From Branchiostoma floridae (Eukaryota > Chordata > Leptocardii > Amphioxiformes > Branchiostomatidae): DNA of 64,000 bases. This document shows positions 14,342-64,000 of the stretch, in pieces (position 1 is the stretch's first letter; every line of letters starts with the position of its first letter). The position numbers were made by a program, and so were the translations under genes. The notes under the pieces were generated by a model. That model had not been told where the DNA came from and did no database searches. It saw only the letters and a list, made by a program, of their open reading frames with translations. Location of the stretch: assembly GCF_000003815.2 (NCBI RefSeq), contig NC_049984.1, forward strand, positions 3,196,025 to 3,260,024, given 5' to 3'.

Positions 14342-15981
14342 ATGGCTGGGAAAGATACGTTTCTGTATTTTGGGTATGGCAGTAACTTGCTGAAGGAAAG
14401 GATACAGATAAACTCTCCAACTGCCCAGTTTAAGGCTATTGGAAATGTGCAGGTGAGTCATAATGTTTTATGAATACAGTACACTGTGAATATGGGTTAC
14501 CCTCTGAAAACAGTCGCTTTGTTTCTTTGCCTTGTCTTGATTTATGTTCAAATTGTTCCCTGGTCCAAGTTTGTTCTTGACAGAATTGTAAGTGGAGACG
14601 GCGCTTTTGGCCTATTTGTTTCTGGTGCTGGGTTTACACGTACATTGTATAACGTATTTTATTACACATTGATGCAGGATACTGTAAATGCAGAAACTTT
14701 CGCGGTGGTTTAATGTTCGCGGTTTTCCATGGCAGTAAGAGACTACAGTGCATGATGCTATCGCGAACTTAAAACCACAGCGAAATGTCCCTTTTTCCGC
14801 TCTTCCACAAAATTAAATCCCTGCAAACTTAAATGCATTTACAGTAACAGTTTCTCATGTTAACGTTACTAGTACACACCTCATCGGTAAATCTACAGAC
14901 TCTTGCCTCTCCTCCAGGACTACAGGCTGGGCTTCTATGGTTCCTGGAGCCGGTGGGGAGGGGGCGTGGCCACCATCGACCCCACCCCTGGACACACCCT
15001 GTGGGGCGTGGTCTGGCAGATCGGCATGGAGAACCTGGACGCTCTCAACAAGTGAAAAACTTTCTTCTTTTGTACGGTTGTTGTGGCACAATAATTTTAC
15101 AATTTGATAACAGTCTTTCAGGCAAGGGGTTTTGTGCAGGTACTGTAGGTTAATGTACAGGTACCTGTACCTGCATCTAGCCTCCATAGCAGGCTCTCTG
15201 GGGCCATTTCTTTTTATACTGGCAAAGGCCGGCAATCAGCAACCCAGTACAAAACGAAATGGCCAATAAAAGTGTATTATAAGCCAAAAAAAGGCCCCAG
15301 AAAGCCTGCTATGGAGGCTAACCTGTATACGTACCCGCTTGGCTGTAAGCATGATTGAGCTGTAAGGTAAGCTGCATTATTTGCACTACAGACATAATTA
15401 TCTAAACACTAAAGATCAATAAATAAATAAATAAATAAATTCTACATTCATTGAACAAGCATCATGCTTTATCTCAAAGACAACGACCGTGCCCTGATTT
15501 TTTTAATGAAAAATCTAAGAAACAAACATTTTGGGCTTGTTGCTTTTTCACATTTTTTCTGTCAGCAACATTAGACAATTGTTGTATATAGTAAAGTGGA
15601 CTCATTCCTTGAAGCTAACTATGAGGCCCCAGATGTCTTACTGAGGGATGACTGCGGTGTGAACATTTGACGATAATAATTCATTTCTTTTCTTATTCCA
15701 GACAAGAGGGGGTAAAAGACAATGATCAAGGTGTGTACAGACCTGTGGAGCTCTCGGTGAAAACCTCCACAGGTGAAACCCTCACCTGCAGATCCTACCG
15801 AATCATCGACACCAGTCAGCCCAATCTCCCCTCCCCGCAGTACATGGAGGTCCTGCTAGGGGGCGCCAGACAGCAGGGGCTTCCTGAGGAGTATATACGA
15901 GAGCTGGCCGAGATTCAGACCAACGACTACAAAGGCCCTGTTCAAATCATGGAAGATTTGAAAAAGAACAGCAAGAGTTGA
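14342..15981 (+). CDS. GGCT: Gamma-glutamylcyclotransferase
   Basis: Cytosolic enzyme of the glutathione cycle that releases 5-oxoproline and a free amino acid from gamma-glutamyl amino acids. Three exons: 14342-14452, 14918-15051 and 15702-15981, coding for 174 residues (human protein 188). Motifs: FLYFGYGSNLLKERI, the YGSNL substrate-binding loop, at residues 6-20; TLWGVVWQ; QEGVKDND, carrying the glutamate that acts as general base in the human enzyme; then CRSYRI, PSPQYMEVLLGGAR, LPEEY and NDYKG. Junction phases 0 and 2 match. The ATG at 14342 was chosen for its A at -3 and G at +4; in-frame ATGs at 14318 and 14339 would add 8 or 1 residues. No good polyadenylation signal was seen before the MITE at 16020. 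Confidence 0.95.
14680..14846. mobile_element. Short MITE, TACTGTAAATGCA family, in GGCT intron 1
   Basis: TACTGTAAATGCAGAAACTT at the left end and inverted AAATGCATTTACAGTA at the right, 167 bp apart, with GCGGTGGTTTAATGTTCGCG inside. Confidence 0.85.
15178..15320. mobile_element. 143-bp MITE, ends TAGCCTCCATAGCAGGCT / AGCCTGCTATGGAGGCTA
   Basis: Long inverted ends (18 bp exact, continuing with GGGGCC / GGCCCC) around a short centre, in GGCT intron 2. Flanks ACCTGCATC and ACCTGTAT resemble a decayed target duplication. Confidence 0.85.
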
Positions 15982-18323: not shown

Positions 18324-21300
18324 ATGGCAGCTGAGTGTCCCACAGGTAGGTACCGAGTTGTGTCGTCTGATTTACTCTCCAAGCAGAGGTTAGGCGTCTG
18401 CTTGTTTATGGACGTCTTTTTAGCGTTTTTATCCGGCTTTCCACTTCGTCAAGGTTTCTTTTTACCTCCAGTCAAACGAGGGCCCAATATTGTCTACTTT
18501 AAACTAGAAAGGTGACATTTTCAAGCAGATATATTTGTTTGCATGTTGTAGTGTAACAGTAATCCTGACTACTGTTATGTTTATCCTTACTCCATCACAA
18601 ATTTTATATTTAGTGACCTGAGCCCCTCCAGCTCTGTGCTAAGACATTTGCTACATCAAGTAACCGAACACCACAGGGTGCCTGCTACTTTACCGGTAAC
18701 CATGGTGACAGCTTCTGGTCCAGGTCGTTGACCTTATTTGTTTGGAGAAGAAGAGGAGGAAGAAGAAGAAACAGAGCAAAAGCAATATGTTAAAAAGCCG
18801 TCCACAACATGCCTGAGCCTAACCTCTGCTTGGAGGGTAGTCCGGTGTACCTTTCACTGCGTTCGCGCCATATGTTTTACCTTTTACGCGGGAATGTCAC
18901 AGAGTGATTGATGGGGTCTTTGAGATTACTCAGCGGTGTCAGTGGTCTCATGTCAGAGGATTTTCCTGAACTAGAATTTTTGTTTCTTTCAATCGTGTGT
19001 GTAGGACTGAGGTTGTAGAATAAACATGAAAGTGTCCCCCGTGACATTGGGGGAGGTCGTTACGGGGCAACGTTTAAAGACCATTAAATAGTTGCCAATA
19101 AGCCAGTCTTTCAGGTCACTTATTACCTAACTTTCATGCTTGTATAAACTGGCCGATAAACGTCTTGAAGTGGTCTCCAACTGCAAGATATTGGGTTCTG
19201 TTTCATTGAGGACGAAGTGAGAAGTTATTTTTGTTCCGTGCAGCAGAACATATTCTCCATTGTTGTAGATACCGTCCAAGTTCGTTGACCCCACACCAAG
19301 AAACTCATGAGGAATGAGGGCTCAAGGCTTCTCATGCCAAGTCCGACTGAGCTATCGCCTTACCTAATCTGTTACCAATTAAAGAACACCCACCCCTTTC
19401 TTTATTCCTTACATCCGTGTGCACTGCGGAGAAAACAAGATTTGCTATGTACTCTCCAAGCAGAGGTCAGACTCCAGATTTTGTTTTAAGTCTTTGAAGG
19501 CTTTTTATCGGGCTTTCTATTTTGTGAGGGTTTCTTGTTGTCAAGTACGGCTGTCGGCCAATAGGAAAGAAGGCCTGACAATAGATCACAATAGAATTCC
19601 GGACAGAAATGTCTAACTAAAAAAACAAAACAAAAAAATAACAACAGCAGGAACCTAATCTCTGGAGAGTAGATTTGTTGATTTTGGGCGTCATGTTTGC
19701 GCTTGGTAAAAACGCGTGAAAAGAGTAACGTTTGTTTCAGCTGTGTTGTTTGTTGTTAGAGGGCACACAGCTTACAGGATGATGGTCCACAGGATGATGC
19801 CTGCAGTGCTTGTCTTTCTCGGCTAGGGGGCGTCACCTTGGCATGGCGCATACCATAGGGTCATGATGTCAGTCGCACACGTGGAGGCAAACTTGGATGC
19901 AAGCATTCAATCCGTCGGGTGCGAGGGTGTTGAGGGGGATTAGAAGTAACGGAAGGGAGGATGTTTTTCTTTTCTCCTTCGCTGACAAACACTATGGCGT
20001 AGATAGACGGCACGCAGTGTCCTCAATGAAGACAGTGCGTTGCTAAGACGAATGCGGCTAAGAGTAAGAGGAAAATTATTTTGTATCGTATGTCATCCTA
20101 TCCCTTGGTATCAAAAGTCTCACAACAAAATAAACTGTTGTTAATCGTAACCGTGTTCTTCTTGATGAATTGACAAAGCATCGAGGAATAGCGCCAAACG
20201 CTACGCCAAGTCTGCGAATTTGCGCTAATTCCCCCTCATTTGCGTCACTCCGTTTGACGCAGTTCGACGCAAACAGTCGTTGTACTTAAACGATACCCGC
20301 TGAAATGTCATTTGTACTTTTGTTTATATCTTACCCTCTTTGGAAATATTGATCTATTTTCTTTTTCATTTCAGCATCAGGTGCCGATGTCCCAGAGACC
20401 ACCTGTTTCGCCCTGGTGTCCTACAGCGACAGCGACAAGGACTGGGTACTCAAGCATCTCGTTCCCAACGTAGAGAGAGACGACAAGATCGTCCAACTTT
20501 TCCTCAAAGACAGGGATTTCGAGCCGGACGTGTCAAAACTCGACGCGTATTCCGAGATAGCCAGAAACTGTGACAAGATCGTCGTACTGTTTATTTATTT
20601 ATTTATTTATTGATCTTTAGGGTAGTCCCTTCAGTTAACGTGGTAACTGATTTCCAAGGGAGCCCTATTTGTTGTCCCGGAGTTACGTCAGGAATGGCGC
20701 GTGTGTGTGGGAACTTGACCAAGCCTTGTCGTCCGGTCACAGACTCGTTCCCATCGTCCTTAGCGACTGTGACGTACCACAGACTCTCAGGCCCTTCGGC
20801 CCCTTGGTGTACCGCGCAGGCGCAGGAGATGGGGACTTCTGGGAAAGACTTCGAGACACGATCACTGGAAAGACGAAAGGTTGTGGTCAATCGCATATAT
20901 GGTTTATTTCAGAGTATCACATTAAACCTCTGTGTTGTAATTAGATATGCCAGTTATGTTTATAAAACAATATAACCCGATTCAAATGATTAGATGATTT
21001 TGACGCCAATGATTTATTAGAACGGCTTTTCATTGCTACTACAGTCAAATTAAAACTGCCCAAGAAGACCACTGAGGTAAATTTTGACTATGTGGACAAG
21101 TGGTCACTAAATATATAGGAGGATTCATGATGCTTGTATCAACTGAAAAAGGTATATGTAACGGACCACCAAAAAGTGGTCATATTGGCCAGGCGGTCCT
21201 TTTGTAGAGGTTTGTACAAGTTTGACAGTATCACGACAGTGTGTATGGATATTTTTATTGAACCTATGTGGCGCTAAGGTCTATCTTAAGTGACTCCAAA

Positions 21301-24300
21301 GTTATCATTTGTTGTCTGTCCAAATCAATGAAAAATTGAAATACGTCTATTCCCATTTCTTTCCCAGATCCGTCTTTTGCAAGAGGCCGGACCAAAACGT
21401 TCCCAAAACTCCCGACTGTTCTGACACCCAGGACGGCTGATGTCAGCGCTGTTTGCGGGATGGTGCGGGAAGCCCGAGTGTCTCTCTCGCCAATGACGTC
21501 AGCTGGGGACCGAACACACGCTCTCCCGCCAATGACGTCAGCTGGGTACCGAACACACGCTCTCCCGCCAATGACGTCAGCTGGTGGCGGAGCACAACAC
21601 GTTGTCGGGATCTGGGGGATGGGCGGTAGCGGGAAGACCGTGCTGGCTGTCTTGGTGGCTCAGGCATTGGCTCAGGAGGACAGGAGAGAGGTGAGAATTG
21701 AGCATAAAGACCACACACTTACTTTAAAACATTTTTAAGTATATAGATCACACACATACTTTTTGGTGTCTTCCATTGGGTTACATCAAGTGCGTATTAT
21801 GAGTTTTATTGGGAGTTGATTCTCAAGCTCAAGAGTTGTTACTAGGAATAAAGAAATTTAAGATGTTTCAGTCAGAAATCGACCGCATCATGTCTTGCAT
21901 AAACGCTGTACCTTTTAATCATTGTAGGAAGAAAGAGGTTTTCCGTTCAGAAATGCTGTTTTCTTTCCGCAGGTGTTTTGGATGACGTCAGGAAGACGTA
22001 ACAGCGTGCTGGAGAACTTGGTGGATCTGTTCGCCGACATGACCTGCAGTTACCTCCCCTTTACAGAACTCAGCGACATCATCAGCGCCATACGTCATCA
22101 CACACATGACAAGGACTACGTCATCGTCTTGGATGACGTTAGGAATGTCGAACATGCGGAAGACATCATCGACGCGATGGCAGGCAGGTGCCAGGTGCTA
22201 GTGACGTCACGTGACGTGCAGGTGTTTCGCGCCTTGCAGGTGTCTCAGGTGCACAACCTCAAGACGTTTGAGAAGCGTGAGTCCGAGACGCTGCTTCTCA
22301 AGAAAATCGGACTGAGCTACGCCTTGGATCCGTTCGACGAAAGGAGGGTGATGGTTGACGTCATCCTGCAGGCGTGCGGTGGGCTCCCCCTGGCGATTTC
22401 TGTTGGTGCTGCCACCATTCAAAACTCGGAGGATGTCAATGTGTGGAGAAGCACAGCAAGAGCTCTGAAAAGCCACGGTCCCTCGACAAAGGAAGGCACG
22501 GGAAACAGACACGTTAGCAATGTACTAAAATCTTTTGCCGTTAGCCTAAACGCTTTGACACCAGCATTGCAGCGACGTTTTGTTCTTTGTGGGGTCTTCC
22601 CCGACAATGTTGATATCCCCATGGACACATTGGCTATGTTATGGCGCACAGAGTGTACGAATCTTTCAGAAGTTGAATCTCAGAGAAGTGCTGAAAGTCT
22701 TATCCAACGGTCGTTGTTGTTGGAAGGCAGGAAACCTTCTACCTATCGTCTGCACGACATAGCGCAAGACATTGCCAGACCTAAGCTCGGCGACGAAGAG
22801 CCTTCGGTGCACAGACGTCTGATCGCATCGTACAGAGCAAAGTTGGGGAGGAGTTTGGAAGACTGCTGGGACGATGGTTACTTCTTCCAGCACATCTCGT
22901 ATCACTTCAAGCAAGCCGGAATGACGGACAAATTGATGAAGATGTTTGTGAGCTACTCATGGTTGAAAGTCAAGCTGGAGCGCACGGATTTCTTTGCTCT
23001 TCTTTCTGAATTCAAGAACGTTGAGCTTGACCTACCCGAATCTGTTGTCCAGGTGTATGAAGCTCTAACCTTGTCGGGGCGCGTCTTGTGTGCGGACAAG
23101 ACTCAACTCGGTGCACAACTTCTTGGCAGGTTGACGAAATCCACCAACAAAGACATCATTCAGCTTCTTCAAGAAGTGGAAGACAGATCCCAGGTTGCGT
23201 TACATCCTTGTAGACAGTGCTTAACGGCCCCCGGTGGACCCACCATTGGTACCTACAACAGACTTCAAGAGGCAGTGCTTTGCATTGCTGTCACTAACGC
23301 GCTAGGGCCTAAGAGGGTCTTCATGGGGTCTGCCGACCGCACGATAAGAGTGTGGGACTTGGAGTCTTGCAGGGATGTCAGCGTTCTACTAGGTCACCAT
23401 GGTGACGTGACCGCTTTGGCGATCAGGAAGGACGACGCGATCCTCGCGTCAGGATCCCGGGATTCCGCCGTGAGGATCTGGGACGCGGATCGCCTGACCT
23501 TGCTCTGCACGCTCGAAGGTCACAGGGGCAGCGTCAACGGAGTTGCTTTCCTGGAAGATGGCGCCACTCTGGTTTCCGTGTCCAGCGATCAAACCGTGAA
23601 GGTCTGGAAGCTGGACGCCTTACCGGAACCTCAGGCGTCAAATGTGATGCTTTCGGGGAGTCATTTGACACCAATAACGTCCATAATCTGGCCAACAACC
23701 AAAGACTTTGAGATCGAAACCGTGCCAAGAACCCAGCTTTTGTCGACGTCACCGACAGAGAGTGATGACGCCAGAGACCTGCCAGGCCCGAACACGTGGC
23801 TGTGTGTGTCGACTCTAGTCGGACACACTGGAGAGATAAACGGCGTGTGCGCCTTTCATCATAAGAATATGGTGACCACGTGTTCGAACGACAACACCGT
23901 CCGACTGTGGGATTTAGACAGCCTGCAGTCACACTGTCTTGAAGGGCACGAGAAGGCGGTGTTGGACGTCGCCATAACAACGGACGACAGTTTCCTGGTT
24001 TCTGCGTCAGGCGACAGACAGGTGGGCGTGTGGGACGTGGACACGCGAGACCTGCTCCACAAGCTGGTGGGACACACGGACATGGTCGCCGCCATTGCGA
24101 TCACGCCGGATGACGCCAACCTGGTGTCAGGCGGTGGGATGGACGATACCACTATCAGGATATGGAAGCTCAGGGAGGGGAATCAGGTTGGTACGTTCAG
24201 GGGCCACGGAGAGGGAATAAAGGCACTTATAGCCGTGGACACTGAGAAGGGTCGAATGCTCTTGTCCGGGTCTGTAGAAGCTACTTGTAGGATATGGAAG

Positions 24301-26316
24301 CTTGAAGACGCTCCGCAAGACGTTGCACCTCTTCTAGGACACGATAGCCCGGTCTACGCTGTTGCCATATCAAGAAAGGGAAGGTTGGCGGTGTCGGGGT
24401 CACGTTCTGGGGAACTCAAGCTGTGGAACCTCCACTCTGGAGAGACAGAGGCCGTTGTGAGAAGCGCTCATTCGAGGTCTATCCGCGCCTTGGCTGTGTC
24501 AGAGGACGAGAGCATGGTCGTGTCGGGATCTAAGGACAGAAAGGTCAAGATCTGGGACGTGAGTCAAGACACGGAGACCTCTAGCGACATATTTAGATCG
24601 GTGCAGCCGTCTTACTTGTTCGAGAGGTCGGTGCTTCGTGGTCACGTCGGGGCGGTCCAATGCGTCGCCATCTCCCAAGATTCTAAATTGGTTGTGTCTG
24701 GAGGTTGGGACAACCTCGTTTTCTTGTGGAACGTCCAGAAGGGTAGGTGCGCTCGAAAGTTCGTCCACGTCAGCTACGGCATCATGTCTGTAGTGTTCTG
24801 TAAACAGTCTGTCGTGGCGTGTGCCAGAGATAACGTGGTCTGCAGGTGGGATGGTCTAACAGCAGAGGATAAGACCAAGCGGACTGTAGTGCGCGGTCCG
24901 AGCGCTAGATGGCTCTCTTACCCGGCGATGATGCTCCCAGACGAGGCAAAGATTGTGAGCGGCTGTCCTGAAGACGAGCGGTACTGCCAGTGGGACAGAA
25001 TCGGGAGACAGTCATTGGGGAGCTGTGGCCACCCGATCGGCTCTGTCCTCACAGCCCTGGCTGTGAGCTGCGATGGAAGAACGCTGGTTTCAGCCTCTAC
25101 AGCCGGGACTATAACATCGATCAATCTCTCAACCAGTAGGAACGATGTTACACATTTTGTGACCCAAAAAGAAGTGGTAGCGCGTTCCGAACTCAAGAAG
25201 CAGACCAGTGCGATCACGATCTTAGAAACGGGAACGGAAGGACACACGGTTTTCTTGACGGGCGACGTGCAAGGCGCTGTCAAGATGTGGCGCACCGACA
25301 GGGGAGCAGACGTCGTCCGCTATGTGAAGGACAGATTCGAGGTTCTGGGCGCGGCTCTGGGGCAGATCACGTCCTTCTGCAACCTGTCCAGGCACCTGGC
25401 CGTGTCCGGAAGCGGCGGCGGCACGCTGGCGGTCTGGGACGCCCGCGAGCGGAGACGCCGCGACTGCTGGGAGGCGCACGACGCTGTCGTCACCGACGTC
25501 GTGACGACAGACGGAGGCGGGCGGCAGACGATCCTCAGCGTCCCGAACACGCGGCTCGTTCTCAGCGCGTCGCTAGATAGGACCATAAAGCTGTGGTTTG
25601 TTTCGGCGTCGTCGTACCAGCCTCTCCATCTCATGTTCCTACCACGCGACTGCCCGCCCGCTCTCAGGCTGGCCACCGCTCCGGACGGCTGCCACTTCGT
25701 CACAGGCTCCGTGGATAACAAGCTTCGGGCTTATGACGCCAACACGTTCGAGCTTGTCAAGGAGTACCCGTCTGACTACTACGGCGTCAACTGTGTTGGC
25801 TTCACAGCGGACGGACGGGAAATGATGTGCAGCTACAGCGGTGGATTTCTGGGTGTTTGGGATTTCAACACGGGCGAGTGCGTGAACGCAAAGCGCGACA
25901 ACACGACAAGACGCCCCGACACGTGGTGCCATTTTTCCGCAGTCGTCCCAGACACATGTCAAGTAGGGCCTATAGTTGTCACAGGAGACTCGCAGAACAA
26001 GGTAACGGTTTGGGATTACGTCACCGGTGACGTGAAGCATTGCTTACAAGTTCCCAACCGGAAATTACGTCGATGTTCACAGGAAGTGACGTGTGTGACG
26101 GTGACGTCAGACGGTAGTAGAATCGTGTCAGGGTCTGCAGACATGACGTTACGGGTATGGGCTATCGCTCCTTCAGGAGAGACCAACTTGCTCTGTCAGT
26201 TCACGTTTGAGCACGCGCCAAGAGCGGCGGTCATCACTGACACCGGGAAGATCTGTGTGGGACTGAGTAACGGTCAAGTCTGCTTCCTTCAGCTCAAGGA
26301 ACCGGTGATAGTTTAG
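18324..26316 (+). CDS. TIR - NB-ARC - WD40 STAND receptor (Apaf-1/NLR-like)
   Basis: Predicted intracellular sensor or scaffold of 1707 residues. Exons: 18324-18345, 20375-20588, 20659-20879, 21368-21690 and 21973-26316; all phases join. The TIR domain (about residues 12-150) has FALVSYSDSDKDWV (box 1), a TLR-like BB loop RDFEPD and box-3 FW in DFWERL. A repeat linker leads to NB-ARC: P-loop GMGGSGKT (236-243), Walker B YVIVLDDV (309-316), VLVTSRD, GGLPLAI (396-402) and MHD-like RLHDIAQDIA (about 520). About 20 WD40 blades follow from about residue 696 to the end (for example RTIRVWDLE, NTVRLWDLD, MTLRVWAIA), enough for two or three propellers. WD40 after NB-ARC is Apaf-1 architecture, with TIR replacing CARD. 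The position of the usual catalytic Glu appears to be Ala (EIARNCDKIVVL), favouring a signalling over an NADase TIR. Intron 2 (70 bp) is the least certain junction. Confidence 0.88.
18375..18838. mobile_element. MITE with ends CTCCAAGCAGAGGTTAGGC / GCCTAACCTCTGCTTGGAG
   Basis: Inverted ends 464 bp apart, in intron 1 of the TIR gene. Relatives at 19451-19672 and 29511-30076 share the ends; the 19451 copy also shares an interior stretch around TTTTTATC.GGCTTTC. Confidence 0.8.
19451..19672. mobile_element. Shorter copy of the CTCCAAGCAGAGGT MITE
   Basis: Left end ACTCTCCAAGCAGAGGTCAG, right end (inverted, decayed) CCTAATCTCTGGAGAGTAG. Same intron as the 18375 copy. Confidence 0.65.
20589..20658 (+). 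other. 70-bp intron inside the TIR domain, starting at a (TTTA)n repeat
   Basis: The TIR reading frame enters GTTTATTTATTTATTTATTT and hits a stop. The next TIR segment (YLLSRSYVRNGACVWELD) is in another frame from 20659. Splicing CT|GT...AG|G restores ...KIVVLEPYLLSRS. A donor at 20584 (GTACTG) with an acceptor at 20662 is an alternative. The short repeat may have grown after the intron formed. Confidence 0.6.
21060..21215. repeat. GTGGTCAC-type dispersed repeat
   Basis: Contains GACCACTGAGG, GACAAGTGGTCACT, AAAGTGGTCATATTGGCCAG and CGGTCCTTTTGTAGAGG. The same phrases recur at 42060-42440 and, diverged, at 11370-11500. In intron 3 of the TIR gene. Confidence 0.55.
21490..21584 (+). repeat. 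In-frame coding minisatellite (39 bp x 2.4) with three CRE palindromes
   Basis: Units begin CCAATGACGTCAGCTGGG at 21490, 21529 and 21568. Thirteen codons each, so the frame is kept; the protein repeats PMTSAG-RTHAL between TIR and NB-ARC. Each unit carries the palindrome TGACGTCA (21494, 21533, 21572), a consensus CREB/ATF site. Confidence 0.92.
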
Positions 26317-49700: not shown

Positions 49701-52700
49701 AAGGTTCGACATCCAGGAAACGAGATACTGAATGCCAAAGTTACTCAAGCATCTGTGAATTGACCATTTACTAATTCTAAACTTTTCCAGTTGCTTGAGT
49801 AAATTTTGCATTGAGTATTTCTTTCCAAAGTTAAAAGCCGGTCTTTGTACTTTCTCTGCTTACTTGGATGCTTCAGAAAAGTCTCATAGTTTACAAAGAG
49901 CATGTTCATCATTATCTCCACTGTTGTGGCTAAAAATTACACGTGATGTGATCGTGCATTTCGAAAACCACTACCTCTATTGCTTTGATAATGAAACATG
50001 GCTTGCATGCACAACATGGCAGTAAAGTTATAACAAAGCCTATAGACTGTGCAAAGGACATTGGTGATGACAAATTTTGGATGAAACTCCTGTTTCGGTG
50101 GAGGGCTACGAGTAAGTATCGTCACAGGCGCTGCTGGGGGTCGTCTTGCGGACTGAAGGGCTGTAAACGGCACCGCCCCGACTGGCCAGGTTCTCCCCAT
50201 TCCACTAGCGTAGATGAACGCGGTTGAGGTTACTATCTAACGGTCCTTCTCGGATTTCTTTCCTCCCACAGCCCCCATCACCTCAGGTTGACAGGCTTCG
50301 GGGATTAAAAGGTTCGACTGATCGGCGGTGTCGTCGCGTTGGTGGCCACGGCGTGTCCGCGTGATCTCCGCCCAACTCTCGACAGGTGGCTACCCCATCC
50401 GACGTCTCGACTTGGCCCAACCGAAACACATTCCTCCTCCTCTCCTTCTTTTTCTTTCCTTTTCTCCTGCCCTTATGATTCCATTTATTTCAGTACTCCT
50501 AAGATTTATGCCATTTGCCACGAGCTAGCGGCGACCGTTTGTGTAAGCCTTGCAGCAGTACAGGTGCGCCCTGGTGGGAATCGAACCCGGGTCCTCTCGC
50601 GGCTCCGAGAGGCGGCGGTCAGACCCACCTCAGCCACTTAAAAGCTGCCGAGGTGCTTAGGAAGGGGTGGGGGCTCTCTCCCACGCACGCTTTGTAAATA
50701 CTGTGTGGAAATTGCATTGCTATGGTTCTGCCCTCCAGAGAACGGCACGAAAAAGTGGCCCTGCAACCCTAAAAAGGTGATGATCGCCCACATCCCCGAC
50801 AAGAGGGAGATCATCTCGTTTGGGAGCGGCTACGGAGGCAACTCCCTGCTGGGGAAGAAGTGCTTCGCCCTGAGAATAGCCTCGAGAATCGGCCGGGACG
50901 AAGGCTGGCTGGCAGAGCACATGCTGGTGAGTAGGCAAACAAGTAGTCAAATGAAAAAGCTGCATTGTCAGTGTGTTAAATGACATTCCTATAGTTCTTG
51001 GGCTGTCTTCAGTTTTAGATTTTTTCTGACTAATTGTTCTGAAGTCCATGTTGTAGTGTTTTTTTTGATTTTGGATTTTTTTTTGGGTGGGTGAATCTTT
51101 TTCTCAGGACGGAAGGATTGGTCCTGGAGACAGTTCAAATGCCTGTTCTTTAACAGTTTTATGGTATTTTCCCCCTAATCTCTTATTTTGTGGTCGTTTT
51201 GTGGAGGAAAACTTACACCTCTTGATCTCCCAAAAGGAGCAAGGTTGAAACATTAAGAAGAACAGCAAACGGAAGGATGCAGAAAACTGATTGTTCAACG
51301 GTCAAATAGTTAGCCAAAGAGATAGATGAATTGAGGACATATAGGTGCAAATCAATGTGAATGCTTAGCTGAACGTGCCTTGCTTGTTACACATCCTGGG
51401 CATCATATAAAGAACAGGTACTAGGTGAAACATTAAGAACAGAAGACTGAGAAGGATGGAGAAACCTGATAGCCAGATTTTCTGTGGTGCCCCAACAAAC
51501 AAAGAGTTGGAAATCAATGTGAATACTTAGTTTAAAGGGATGTATTGTAAAATTTTGGCGCAAAAAGGACAAATATACTGAATTTTAAAATCTCCTGCTA
51601 GATTGGCATTTGTTACTTTCAAGCGTGTTCCTTTGTTCATCGGCAGTGGGAAATGTGCATATTTCAAGACGTCCTCACGGCACAACAAAGTTGTAGTCAT
51701 ACACTGTGAATATTGCTGTGCAGTGTAATAAGGTAGACTCATTACATGATGTAGTAAAAATGACCAACAACAGTAACTTTATTTTTGTACAATGCATCTA
51801 ATTAACGCACCTGGCTTGTTTCAGATCCTGGGCATCACCAACCCCCAGGGAGAGAAGAAGTACATCGCTGCAGCCTTCCCCAGCGCCTGCGGCAAGACCA
51901 ACCTCGCCATGATGCAGCCCACCCTCCCCGGCTGGAAGGTCGAGTGCGTCGGCGATGACATCGCCTGGATGCGCTTCGACGACGAGGGCAGGCTTCGCGC
52001 CATCAACCCGGAGAACGGGTTCTTCGGCGTCGCGCCCGGAACGTCGATGGACACGAATCCCAACGCCATGAGGACGATCCACAGTAATACGGTGTTCACC
52101 AACGTAGCAGAGACCAGTGATGGTGGTGTTTGGTGGGAAGGCATGGAGAAGCCACAGGAGGTACGGAAACGTCAGCTTTTATTTTTTATCAAATTTCATC
52201 ATTTTTGGGAATTGGTGCACTCGTTCACGTAACCTGAAAATTTAGGTGCCAAGGAAAATGTCTGAGGGCTTAACATGGAGTGAATGAGCCCAAATACTAT
52301 GGCTAAGCTGTAAAACTGTATTTTATTTACACTGCACATATATCTCTGTGCATTGGCATTTTGAGCATGTTATCTTGTGCAAGCCTTTGATAGAAGATTG
52401 CACCAAAACAGCTCCATGATGCTAACATCACAACTGTTTGTCTGTCCACAGGGAGTTGAGATCACCACCTGGCTAGGGAAGAAGTACGACCCCACTGACA
52501 AGAACATGAAGGCCGCCCACCCCAACTCTCGCTTCTGCGCCCCCGCCGCCCAGTGCCCCATCATGGACCCGGCCTGGGAGAGCCCTGAGGGCGTGCCCAT
52601 CGACGCGATCGTGTTCGGCGGCAGAAGACCCAAGGGCGTGCCTCTGGTGTACGAGGCATTCAACTGGACCCATGGTGTGTTCATCGGCGCTGCCATGAGA

Positions 52701-56430: not shown

Positions 56431-59400
56431 TCAGTACAGGTCTGGGGGATAGGCGCTGCCAAACAGGAGAGTCCAGGAACTTGGGATCTTCCACTCGGCC
56501 TGGGGGGTGGCTCCTTTACCTCCAGACTTCTGTAGATGGAACACAGGAAAATACTAAATCAGTAATGCATTCAAAGATTATTCCATGTCTAGTCATTTTG
56601 AACAGCTTAATAGGGCATGTCAATTTGCATGCAGGCTCACAGTACCGGTATCTGCAGCATGTATTTCATAAAAAAAACTAAACACATCTGTATAGCTAGT
56701 TTAACAGCTCTTTGGTAAGACACACCAGCTTTACATGCATGCTGTGCGGCAGCAGCTGGTTATATGTGACCTGTTGCACCTAACATTTGTACAACCTAAG
56801 GGTTGATAACTTCAAATACCTTGGCTCCTACATCATGTGTCCTAAAAAGGACTTTGAAATTAGGAAAGCCCTAGCATGGGAGGCAAGCAACAAATTGGAC
56901 AAAATCTGGAAGTCTAATATCCCTAACAAATTGAAAGTCCAAGTATTCACTACTCGAGTGGAACCTATTTTGCTTTATGGTGCGGAAACCTGGACACTTA
57001 CTTGTCAACTACAGAACAGATTAGACGGGACTTACACAAAGTTACTTCGCAGAGCACAGAACATACCATGGACTCAACATGCTACACTCAAAACCATATA
57101 TGGAAATCTCCCACAGCTAACCCAGAAACTGACTCACCGAAGGGTAAAGTTTGCGGGACACTGTTGCCGAGCAAAACAGGAATTAGTGTCTTCTGTTCTT
57201 CGATGGAAACCAAGTGGCCGGGTACATTGCAGAAGTTTGACTTTTATGGACACTTTGACCAGAGACTCTGGTATTGATTTTGAGAATTTAGAGCAAGCTA
57301 TGTCAGATAGGGGCCTAAGGAGTGAAATCTGTACTTGCCTGGTTCCGACCGCTGGTCGATGATGTATGTATGTAACCTTTATACATCTAGCTGCAAGTGT
57401 TGTTTAAAGCTGTCTAGTATGGATGCCCCTACTGTATTTGGTACCAACAAGTTCCACTTAACGATAGTTCTAACTATCTAACAGAATACAAACTTTTGAA
57501 CACATAAATCCTGGGTTCATACCTCTGGTACTTCAAGTTATGACAAAGGGTAAAAAAAAAATCCAAGAAGAGTGCCCCCTTACAGTATGGTCCAAAATTA
57601 CAACCATACGTGTTCAGCAGGGAAATGCTGTGCGGTAGACCCTCACTCGGGATGTCCCTGTAGACCTGCAGCAGCCTCACAGTTGAGCTCTTGGTTTCAA
57701 TTACATGTTCTTCTTTCGTTTTGAGGCTACCAACTTCAATATGCTGAAGACTTTTGTAGCCTATATACTCATTTTTCACGTGAGTGAAGTGAGGAAAGTC
57801 GTGTAAAGTACCTTTCCCAAGGGCACAAGATTGGTGACACCGCGGGGCTCGAACTCAGGACCTTCTGGACCTGAGTCAAACGTGCTGCCAATTGCTCCAC
57901 GCCGTCCCATGTTGGTGGTTGGGAGACCCCATTTAAATCCCAGAGCATCTTGGCTGGGGTAGCACCCGTCTTTCAGAGGGGATGTAAAATGTGGGGTTGC
58001 GTATTCAGAGATGCCTCGAGCACCTTAAAAAGGGAAGGGCTAGCAACCCCGCCCTTAACTTATGATCCACTGCTCACCAAGTCACATGTCCTGTCTACAT
58101 AACATGACGTCACAGTGGATTGTTCATTCTTTGACAAGAACTAGCGCTCATAAGTCAAAAATTTCCAGTTTTTCTTGTGTTGGAAATTACAGTTTAACTT
58201 TTTCAATAAGACTTCAATGAACACAGATCATCAGATGAACAGATCATCAGATCATCAGATGAACACAGATGAACTTTCAAGTTAAAACCCTCACCTTGCA
58301 TGGCACCAACTGTAGCCACTGGTTGAGATAATTTGCTAACGAGAAGGCGTCGGGAATGTTGTCTCCTTCCGCGCAGAATGTCAGCAGCACGGCAAGGGGA
58401 AAACCTGCCTCGCAGCTGGGGGGAGGGGGAGGGGAGAGATTTCATATCAACGATCATAAATAAATGTTTGATAATGTTTACAGCAGTACAAGAAGATATA
58501 TTGCTTTGTTATCGCCTTATCGGAGAAGATACTGAAATCCAAAATCAGCCCTGACTGTAAGATTGTCCTCCAGTTAGCAAATATTGCTAATTATTAAGTA
58601 GGATTTCAAGATTTATTTTGCTGTTACTGACTGTATGAAAGTCCCCATACTTTTTGATGGTTCCGTATCTTCAGGTCACTTGTGGCCTGTGAACACTACA
58701 TTGCAAGAAAATATACAACTTCATACAATGGATGGATTGATGGATTTGTGAATGCATGGATGGATGGATGCATGGATGGATGGATGGATGGATGGGTAGA
58801 TAGATGGGTGAATGGATGGATGGATGGATGGAAGAATGGAAGGATGGGTAGATGGATGGATGGAAGGATGCATGGATGGATGGATGCATGGATGGATGGG
58901 TGATGGATGGGGGAATGGATGGATGGGGGAATGGATGGATGGGTGGGTGGGTGAATGGATGGATGGATGGATGGATGAAGGGATGGGTAGATGGATGGAT
59001 GGATGGAGGTATGGATGGATGGATGGATGGATGGATGCATGGATGGATGGGTGATGGATGGATGGATGGAGGTATGGATGGATGGAAGGATGGATGGGTA
59101 GATGGATGGAAGGATGGTTAGATGGATGGGTGAATGGATGGATGGATGGATGGATGGATGGGTAGATGGATGGATGGATGGAGGTATGGATGGATGGGTA
59201 GAAGGATGGATGGATGGATGGACAGATGGATGAAGGGATGGATGGATGGATGGAAGAATGAGTCAATGAACAAACGAACAAACACATCAATGGATGAATG
59301 ACACAACCAATCTAACTTCGGGACGTACCATTCCTGGTAAAATTTCCTGGCGATGCCTCCCCCGGGGATGAACACTCCTGTCTGCTCCTCCCCGTCCCTC

Positions 59401-61909: not shown

Positions 61910-62495
61910 GGTGAAAATCGCTGAAAACTCAAATAATCACAGCTGGGAGAAAAATGTGCAAATCTGACAACTTTAACCTCTGACCCTAAATACGCTCGTT
62001 CCCGGGATGTCATACCAAGACCGCATACTCGTCTTCCTTATCTGCTTATTCCTTATCAGTTAATGTTTTTACATTTTTAAATCACATACTCTTTACAGAA
62101 TAATCACACGAAATAATTTCAATATATCATTTGTACCATTAGATTGTCTCTTTTTTTCAGTGTTTGTCTGAAAAAAGTATCTTAATTGAAGTAATTTAGT
62201 ATCATCAGGCATTTTATTTTGTTGACGTGTGGTGTCCTCCGCAAATTGGTGAACTCCACGTCAGCTTTAGGAAATGGAAGTTGTGTTTTGGTCTGACGTG
62301 TTACCCAGAAAGTTGCCGCCTTTCTCGCCAAATCCTTTTCTTCTGGAATTCCTCGGTGCCTCTCTTCAGTCAGAAATGGTCGAAGACACTGTTGGAAAGA
62401 TCAAGGGCCCTTAAAAATCGCGCGAAGCTACGAGAAACCGTTTGGATTTGGATGTCGTCGCACCGGAAGCACAACAACGACGACACGACGACACC
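61910..62495. promoter_or_regulatory. Divergent promoter region between PSMG2 and ERN1
   Basis: 586 bp between start codons. CTCGTTCCCGGGA at 61995-62007 shares CTCGTTCCC with the triple motif of the GGCT/phosphatase promoter. The end of the region (about 62400-62495) is CGACGACACGACGACACC-rich and probably ERN1 5' UTR. No TATA box was placed. Confidence 0.55.
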
Positions 62496-64000
62496 ATGTT
62501 TTTGTGGCTTCAGTTTTTCTTGTCTCTCGTTCTATCATCGCTGGAGGTTTCCTCCGAGCGAGCCACGCCGACAACATTATCTGTACCGGAGTCCCTGCTC
62601 TTCGTGTCCACTCTAGACGGCACTCTGTACGCCATCAGCCACAGAACCGGCACTGTGCGATGGTTGCTGAAGGAAGACCCGGTCATACAAGTGCCTTCGG
62701 ACATCACCACAGGTCCTACCTTCCTCCCCGACCCGAAAGACGGATCCCTGTACGTTTTCGGCGGCGCGGGGACCTCAGAAGGACTCGCGAAGCTCCCCTT
62801 TACGATCCCGGAACTGGTGAACGCCTCCCCGTGTAAGAGTTCGGACGGGATTCTGTACACGGGACGGAAAGACGGACACCTGGTACGCCATAGACCCGGT
62901 GACGGGGATTAAACAGCAGAAAATAACGATGGAGGGCACGGACCGGGTCTGTCCCAGCTCGGACGCCTCTACACTGTTCCTCGGTACGAGCTAGATATGT
63001 CTTTAAGATTTTATACAACGATATAGAAGTTTTCTTGGACGCACGTTCCACTTTCTGGTTGGTTGTCAAGCCAATGCAATGGACACAAAATTGTCTTTTA
63101 AGTTTTCTAGACTACTTTCAAGTTTGCAATTTGTTTTCATCTTTAAGATTCTAAAGTTATAATGTTATACAAGATTACAGACGATTTTCTTAAGGACAAA
63201 GGTTTCCTTCGACATACACTCTACTCTCTGGTCAAGGCGATTTAGTGGACAAAATAGTCTTGACAACAATGACACAACAGTGCACTTTTTTTCGGATATG
63301 ATATTCGTGTGTTTGGATATGATATTCCCTTGTAAAAATCAACTGCTGTGATTGTTTGTAATGTCAGCATGTCAAGTACTGTACACATGGTTTGCAAAAA
63401 GGACAAAGGAAAAAGGGGAGGGTCTTTAAAGTTTGTTGCACCATGTGATAGATTTTTAGGATGATGCAATCCTGTCATCTTGTATTGTGCAATCATCATC
63501 GACTTTTCCTTCTTACTGGTAATCTCCAAGCAAATCCTACGGTAGCATAAATTAGTATCAAAAGCTGGCAGATGAGTGAAGCCGGCTTAGGAGTGTGTTT
63601 CCCTACATGGCAAACATACACCTCTTGGCAGACTACACTCCTTGTGAGTCCTTGGCTAGTTTGATACTATCTTTTATGTCATACCTGTGACGCGAAAACG
63701 TTCGATTACGTTGTTCCGGACCAGATGGTAACTTTCCGTACGGCCCGGGTTTATCACACGGGCTCCATTCGAATAAATCGAACTGTTTCGAGTGGGCCGA
63801 GTACGGCGCCATCGAAAGTTCGAATACCTGATTCGGACGTTGGAACATTACTGTTGCAACGCTGTTTTTTCGAGGGCAACAAATTTGTTCAACTTCTGGC
63901 GCATTTCGCATCAAAACAGTGGTTTTATCAGGTGGGTATGACATAAATAAAATACAACACGGTGTATTCCGCATCAACCTCGGTCTCAGCCCGAGCGAGG
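62496..64000 (+). CDS. ERN1: IRE1 (ERN1) endoplasmic-reticulum stress sensor, first coding exon
   Basis: Type I membrane kinase/RNase that senses unfolded proteins and splices XBP1 mRNA. Only the first coding exon, 62496-62983, is in the window (donor CTCG|GTACGAG). The start gives a signal peptide ([20 protein letters not shown]). An in-frame upstream ATG at 62442 would add 18 polar residues before it and is less likely. Luminal-domain motifs: [59 protein letters not shown] and [12 protein letters not shown], then, after a one-base frame change at 62874-62875, [13 protein letters not shown] and [13 protein letters not shown]. As written the frame stops at 62910. Continues beyond the right edge. 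Confidence 0.93.
63673..63947. mobile_element. MITE with ends TTTATGTCATACC / GGTATGACATAAA
   Basis: Perfect 13-bp inverted ends in ERN1 intron 1, 275 bp apart, interior rich in TTCGAA and CG. The overlapping 114- and 73-codon frames belong to it. A separate 10-bp inverted pair TAGTATCAAA / TTTGATACTA (63553, 63660) lies just upstream. Confidence 0.75.

Follow-up and report, generated by a model that had tools for sequence, protein, structure and literature searches.

An Apaf-1-like TIR-NB-ARC-WD40 gene of amphioxus with a copy of an interspersed repeat inside its TIR exon

The stretch of DNA examined in this work (hereafter the window) comprises 64,000 nucleotides of contig NC_049984.1 of the amphioxus Branchiostoma floridae (C6:3196025-3260024 of the 513-Mb assembly), and at positions 18324-26316 it holds a gene in which a TIR domain is followed by an NB-ARC ATPase, the helical domain of Apaf-1 (APAF1_C) and a long array of WD40 repeats. 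In our interpretation, which we consider probable, this gene and its two paralogues, all of the TIR-NB-ARC-APAF1_C-WD40 type, encode STAND ATPase switches built on the plan of Apaf-1, the TIR of the window copy has been hit by an insertion that carries a stop codon, and in the intact paralogues the protein would work as a clustering switch. The insertion is that of a mobile element, which appears to have recently cut the TIR signalling domain in this genome copy.

The predicted domain order, viz. TIR, NB-ARC, Apaf-1 helical domain and long WD40 array, is real. In searches with hidden Markov models (HMMs), TIR, NB-ARC and WD40 all score above their Pfam cut-offs and occur in the order given by the original prediction, which had been made from the letters of this DNA. 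In the spliced model TIR_2 scores 35.3 bits (cut-off 28), TIR 32.0 bits (cut-off 21.3) and NB-ARC 81.0 bits (cut-off 23.5), the last with both the P-loop and the Walker B motif present. The Apaf-1-like layout with a TLR-class TIR instead of CARD, which had also been proposed, is borne out by Pfam and by a profile search of the PDB. At the N-terminus of the window gene Pfam finds no CARD, a domain it does detect in the Apaf-1 of the same genome (locus C7, used as a control), and the TIR stands there instead; C-terminally there are no leucine-rich repeats (LRRs), that place being occupied by the WD40 array. For the part from NB-ARC to HD2 the nearest solved structure is Apaf-1 (E 6.4e-14), with the plant NRC proteins following from 4.3e-11, and the Pfam model of the APAF-1 winged helix stays below its cut-off (15.0-15.7 bits vs 27, compared with 83.7 bits in the C7 control). 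A profile built in this analysis detects 17 WD40 repeats with no lower limit on the score and 13 with a limit of 15 bits, and the spacing of the repeats suggests about 21, which makes the predicted number of about 20 blades plausible; an AlphaFold model of the array from the single sequence had a mean predicted local distance difference test score of 33.1 and was not used. The features of the gene are as follows.

18324-18345, plus strand: exon 1 with the predicted start codon (7 codons and 1 base); donor cag/GTAGGT 10.3 bits, phase 1.
20375-20589, plus strand: first half of the TIR exon (box 1 and BB-loop region), until the repeat; acceptor 10.6 bits; Pfam TIR_2 at residues 22-131 of the spliced model.
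20590-20668, minus strand: interspersed-repeat copy inside the TIR exon (truncated, retroposon-like end with a (TTTA)n tail); copies genome-wide; stop codon TGA at 20611-20613.
20669-20879, plus strand: second half of the TIR exon (FW box); match of 99.7 bits over 20651-20941 to a three-row TIR profile that includes the window TIR itself; donor 20879 0.2 bits.
21368-21690, plus strand: linker and P-loop exon, with an NB-ARC match; end phases 1 and 0, the same in both paralogues.
21482-21584, plus strand: coding tandem repeat of 39 bp in the linker between TIR and NB-ARC; 2.6 copies, 96% matches.
21616-21639, plus strand: P-loop GMGGSGKT, read from the sequence; its G..G.GK columns are conserved.
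21973-26316, plus strand: long exon with the rest of NB-ARC, winged helix, APAF1_C, WD40 array and stop (Pfam); the frame is open for 1462 codons starting at 21928.
22120-22140, plus strand: Walker B region VIVLDDV; LDDV is invariant in a four-row alignment.
22381-22395, plus strand: GLPLA motif, read from the sequence and aligned with GSPLV of human Apaf-1.
22750-22758, plus strand: LHD motif of the winged-helix domain.
22804-23043, plus strand: APAF-1 helical domain (PF17908, APAF1_C), 44.5-45.1 bits (cut-off 22.8).
23245-26313, plus strand: WD40 array, residues 685-1707 of the model; Pfam WD40 299 bits.

The model as originally predicted has five exons (18324-18345, 20375-20588, 20659-20879, 21368-21690 and 21973-26316), which together make up 5124 bases, a number divisible by three, and encode 1707 residues with the reading frame kept throughout and a single stop at the end. 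Three of its four splice junctions hold up as credible. At 18345/20375 and 21690/21973 the splice signals are strong (9.5-14.5 bits), and at 20879/21368 a strong acceptor (11.0) is paired with a weak donor, whose phase matches that of both paralogues. The fourth junction, 20588/20659, falls on the repeat copy and has poor sites, and it is not accepted here. The 39-bp tandem repeat of the linker is absent from the aligned paralogues, and its copy number may differ among animals.

A protein search of the genome with the NB-ARC-HD2 part found four loci, viz. the window gene (100% identity), C4 (41%), C5 (37%) and C7, and a search with APAF1_C found the same four (6 candidates in each search, all 6 scored, so that the counts are lower bounds). 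By these searches the genome has at least four Apaf-1-type loci, of which one is a CARD-type Apaf-1 (C7) and three are TIR-type paralogues inclusive of the window gene. The C7 locus (C7:13037000-13052900; L013, L014) is a canonical Apaf-1, with CARD (64.9 bits), NB-ARC (144), winged helix (83.7) and helical domain (52) followed by WD40; it is a single open frame of 1280 codons, whereas the coding frame of the window gene is split into exons, its WD40 array is longer and the identity between the two is 25%. C4 and C5 each have a TIR exon (Pfam TIR_2 50.1 and 45.7 bits, respectively), an exon with the P-loop and a long one for NB-ARC-WD40, arranged as in the window gene. The three genes lie on three contigs, alike in order and strand, and their introns have the same phases (1 before the TIR exon, 1 between the TIR and P-loop exons and 0 before V-F-W; those of C4 and C5 were taken by eye from the sequence). 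Because these phases are shared by three paralogues, they argue that the TIR and the NB-ARC-WD40 part belong to one gene, and they are strong evidence of single genes of common origin at the window, C4 and C5; the prediction that one gene joins these domains thus apparently stands.

When up to 10 kb of sequence upstream of all 20 genomic NB-ARC matches (44 candidates scored) was searched with the TIR profile, a TIR was found only at the window, C4 and C5. One more upstream TIR_2, of another kind, was found by Pfam at C8:16337312 (L026) and had been missed by the TIR profile; therefore, further NB-ARC loci may have nearby TIRs of other classes that escaped this profile. This TIR_2 (37.0 bits; positions 1405-1935 on the minus strand of C8:16337300-16347200) is followed by an NB-ARC that differs in kind, its SYWPKLEYE stretch has more resemblance to enzymatic TIRs, and it is a candidate for a second type of TIR and NB-ARC combination in this genome.

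Between the window gene and its paralogues the TIR identity is 36.8 and 35.1%, and between C4 and C5 it is 32.0%. The idea that the window TIR had already been decaying faster than the others when the insertion took place was considered and rejected, the C4/C5 pair having the lowest identity of the three. In all three domains compared, the proportion of nonsynonymous differences (pN 0.33-0.47) is lower than that of synonymous ones (pS 0.65-0.80, mostly saturated); the window TIR was evidently under long-term constraint before the insertion. Between the window gene and C4 the WD40 array is the best conserved part (50.8%, vs 40.8% for NB-ARC and 36.8% for TIR), an excess that is not seen in C5 (35.4%).

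In one search with the four-row alignment, prokaryote genomes yielded 42 loci. The best match (L032, from the archaeal Candidatus Argoarchaeum) covers residues 76-533 of the 540 of the query at 32% identity, and by phmmer the NB-ARC-HD2 part of the window gene scores 176 bits with it vs 82 bits with the Apaf-1 of its own genome. The N-terminal Pfam content was checked in 13 of the 42 loci, and four of these (L032 and the bacterial L039, L048 and L063) have an N-terminal TIR_2 and also WD40, the same order as in the window gene, with APAF1_C present in L039. The other N-termini are CHAT (L033, L042), trypsin (L037), EAD10 (L036, L038), GT4-conflict (L041) and the NACHT N-terminal helical domain (L046), while in L034 and L040 no N-terminal Pfam domain was found. 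Among L032-L042 a single kind of NB-ARC core is seen with exchangeable N-termini (TIR, CHAT protease, trypsin, EAD10, glycosyltransferase). The predicted order of TIR, NB-ARC and WD40 also occurs outside animals, and prokaryotic proteins of the same order tie the apoptosome-like switches of animals to microbial conflict systems. They also bear on the motif RLHDIAQDIA, in which the original prediction had seen an MHD-like trait reminiscent of plant NLRs. In alignments this motif falls on the LHD of human Apaf-1 and of prokaryotic NB-ARC-WD40 proteins, and it will be incorrect to interpret it as indicating kinship with plants, an idea that is rejected here.

If the three TIR-type genes were no offshoot of Apaf-1 but a second lineage, in animals, of NB-ARC-WD40 switches of the prokaryotic type, separately acquired or retained and with the TLR-class TIR added later, then the preference for the archaeal protein and the occurrence of a TIR in the same place in L032, L039, L048 and L063 would be accounted for. 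The first tree is also in line with this; its 22 rows were 5 from animals (the trio, C7 and a fragment of human Apaf-1) and 17 from prokaryotes (the 17 of the 42 loci with a match above 50 bits that reaches query residue 425), and in it the trio (100/100) and the pair of C7 and the human fragment (100/100) form clades that are not joined. However, the monophyly of the animal rows is not rejected, since forcing them together costs 6.85 log-likelihood units in this tree (approximately unbiased test, p 0.068) and 3.69 units (p 0.188) in a second tree of 13 loci and 18 rows. Further, Apaf-1 is no more distant from the nearest prokaryotic rows than is the trio (path to L033 of 2.55 vs 2.83), the stems are long, and Apaf-1 is represented by two rows only, one of them a fragment. 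A separate lineage is the most serious of the alternatives, although we regard it as doubtful.

The second alternative concerns the repeat. For the 20588/20659 junction the putative intron would be of 70 bp (20589-20658), with a donor (ACT/GTTTAT) of -3.8 bits (18th percentile of all GTs of the window) and an acceptor of -0.1 bits (66th percentile of all its AGs). The junctions of the paralogues score 4.6-9.4 bits (4 donors) and 4.7-8.9 bits (6 acceptors), and the remaining junctions of the window 0.2-14.5 bits, the donor at 20879 being the minimum. With positions 20605-20680 as a query, the genome yielded the window itself and at least 39 other copies of 97-100% identity (403 candidates, 40 scored), and 18 of the 39 scored other copies are 100% identical across positions 1-64 of the query. 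Nine copies were inspected; they have T-rich tails of varying length and differing flanks, and six of them extend with common sequence past the point at which the window copy ends. An identical 31-base tail end is also found at 15409-15439 of the window, where only this tail end is shared. Judged by these matches, the interspersed repeat resembles a retroposon, and the segment 20590-20668 is one of its truncated copies. As the copies are nearly identical, the insertion is suggested to be recent, and the repeat family has probably been active in recent times.

In neither C4 nor C5 is such a repeat or intron present, their TIR exons being uninterrupted. The host reading frame is identical on either side of the repeat, but if the repeat is read through, the protein stops after 86 residues at the in-frame TGA. 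The protein search of the genome gave only a single locus for the window copy. The TIR of this copy is thus probably broken in the present assembly, whereas both paralogues look intact. The intact spliced TIR of the original prediction is not supported, because its short intron is a mobile-element copy with an in-frame stop and with poor splice sites, a case showing that in the reading of genes by eye such a copy is easily mistaken for a short intron. It can be argued that the repeat is removed as a young intron, in which case the receptor encoded by the window gene would be complete from TIR to WD40, its TIR being longer by four residues. The GT-AG pair restores the frame exactly, a branch-point-like TAAC is possible ahead of the acceptor, and the TIR has been under long-term constraint. 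However, both sites fall short of those used by the paralogues, the acceptor lies within a repeat that is dispersed over the genome, and 11 other frame-restoring pairs score higher, every one of them at the cost of TIR residues. Splicing of this kind is considered unlikely, more so than the separate lineage discussed above.

The amphioxus TIR is of the TLR/MyD88-like class, an assignment that for the window copy depends on the doubtful splice junction. In the PDB the profile of the three TIRs matches TRR-2 (8e-13), then TLR6, 15/2, 2, 1 and 10 (9e-12 to 1e-9), MyD88 (1.7e-9 to 3.9e-9) and a metazoan TIR-STING fusion (1.2e-5), and among its 43 matches up to E 1 neither SARM1 nor a bacterial TIR is found, RPS4 being at 0.46. 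With the spliced TIR of the window alone, 15 of 16 matches are Toll or Toll-like receptors and the other is a chance match to CorA (0.26). In the prokaryotic STAND proteins the TIRs are of the TIR_2 class. That of L032 matches AbTIR-type structures best (5e-5 to 1e-4), followed by SARM1 (0.0024) with TLR1 close behind (0.0068), and for that of L039 no solved structure matched at 0.01. The class of the TIR seems to differ between prokaryotes and amphioxus, with L032 as the one informative prokaryotic TIR. Plant TIR-NLRs (RPS4, ROQ1) also have TIR followed by NB-ARC, but they differ from the window gene in having LRRs in the place of WD40 and a TIR of another class, and the NB-ARC-HD2 part of the window gene is nearer to Apaf-1.

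The TIR could also be an NAD+-cleaving enzyme that the ring activates, in the manner of plant TIR-NLRs and prokaryotic TIR-STAND proteins. The catalytic Glu occupies a column that does not vary among the three TIRs and four prokaryotic TIRs of homologous proteins, and the TIR of the closest prokaryotic relative leans to the enzymatic type. However, the profile of the trio matches TLR/MyD88 and not the NADases. TLRs retain this Glu as well, and a Trp four residues upstream of it is usual in NADase TIRs, whereas in the trio this residue is Ala, Leu or Pro. We therefore lean to a TIR that would act as a scaffold, and an enzymatic role is regarded as quite improbable. Of similarly low probability is a broader scenario, in which a second apoptosome-like family arose from prokaryote-type TIR-NB-ARC-WD40 defence switches, apart from Apaf-1, and had its enzymatic TIR swapped for a scaffold TIR of the TLR/MyD88 class, and in which the TIR of one gene has been lost to a mobile element only recently, so that an NB-ARC-WD40 protein without effector remains, which could regulate the two paralogues in a dominant manner.

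The TIR-NB-ARC-WD40 architecture in amphioxus is already known, having been in print since 2007-2008, and the suggestion that it represents an under-described system is not supported. The gene content found here agrees with the amphioxus repertoires in print. In the passages available from it, Zmasek et al. 2007 (PMC2246300) reports that CARD is replaced by TIR in amphioxus homologues of CED-4/Apaf-1 and notes that one TIR-NB-ARC protein is similar to plant R genes. The amphioxus row of its table opens with 16, apparently the number of Apaf-1 homologues, and six amphioxus sequences were set aside, apparently as redundant or misassembled; the 16 exceeds the four loci found here, which are defined by the helical domain. 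Similarly, Zhang et al. 2008 (PMC2575513), in the part available, lists TIR-[NB-ARC]-WD40s and proposes a link between innate immunity and apoptosis; its section on verified transcripts, which names other hybrids and points to a supplement, does not name a cDNA of this type. The genes of these two papers have the same architecture and the same suggested meaning and come from gene models, whereas the repeat insertion and the exon plan common to three loci come from the present analysis and are absent from the available passages of both. The main text of Huang et al. 2014 (PMC4284660) mentions NLR once and Apaf, NB-ARC or TIR never. In the portions available of papers on placozoans, corals, sponges and Hydra and of a domain survey, the TIR-NB-ARC-WD40 combination is not described, while NACHT/NB-ARC with TIR is reported for Hydra viridissima. 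Among the literature matches listed, whose coverage leaves out most subscription journals, there was no functional study of an amphioxus TIR-NB-ARC-WD40 protein. That the TIR exons and the NB-ARC-WD40 exon form two separate genes, as the weak donor at 20879 might indicate, is rejected as very improbable, given the order, strand and intron phases that three loci on three contigs have in common and the amphioxus gene models of this type already published.

Some observations weigh against the interpretation that we prefer, in which a family of clustering switches has one member with a broken TIR. Removal of 20588/20659 does restore the frame, so that the repeat might still be spliced out; the splice-site scores come from a textbook matrix, and the accepted donor at 20879 likewise scores only 0.2. 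The tree does not place the trio beside Apaf-1. Further, motifs have drifted in the paralogues (LHD to IHR in C4 and FHT in C5; GLPLA to IPAAT in C5), and therefore some copies need not be working switches. Under this same interpretation, the protein of the intact paralogues would be kept closed by its WD40 array and opened by a ligand acting with ATP/dATP, and the NB-ARC modules would then build a ring. The ring would gather the TIRs and seed a MyD88-like TIR assembly leading to an NF-kB-type signal, rather than docking caspases via CARD. The wheel-like oligomer is a reasonable expectation from homology with Apaf-1, and the class of the TIR supports the proposed clustering step. The window copy would most likely lack a full TIR, ending early if read straight through, and a TIR-less product from a downstream start may be possible. 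The higher conservation of WD40 between the window gene and C4 would, we infer, fit a conserved and perhaps internal ligand better than a pathogen target that evolves fast. A reasonable candidate for the ligand is nucleic acid, because an Apaf-like protein of B. belcheri (2 CARD-NB-ARC) binds double-stranded DNA and activates NF-kB, as reported in the part available of PMC11747288. With the architecture known, it becomes testable whether an Apaf-1-like ring can drive TLR-type TIR signalling in a chordate, and the intact-looking paralogues C4 and C5, rather than the window copy, are suited for such functional study.

Four other features were observed in the window. An open frame at 56784-57359 resembles by eye the end of a reverse transcriptase of a long interspersed nuclear element, with no Pfam match at 0.01, and an exon at 62415-62909 has PQQ/beta-propeller matches below their cut-offs and by eye is similar to the luminal domain of IRE1. 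At 15652-15978 there is an AIG2-like exon (60.4 bits), apparently of a neighbouring gene like gamma-glutamylcyclotransferase, and at 51777-52229 an exon of phosphoenolpyruvate carboxykinase (PEPCK_GTP, 209.7 bits), after which further exons can be seen by eye.

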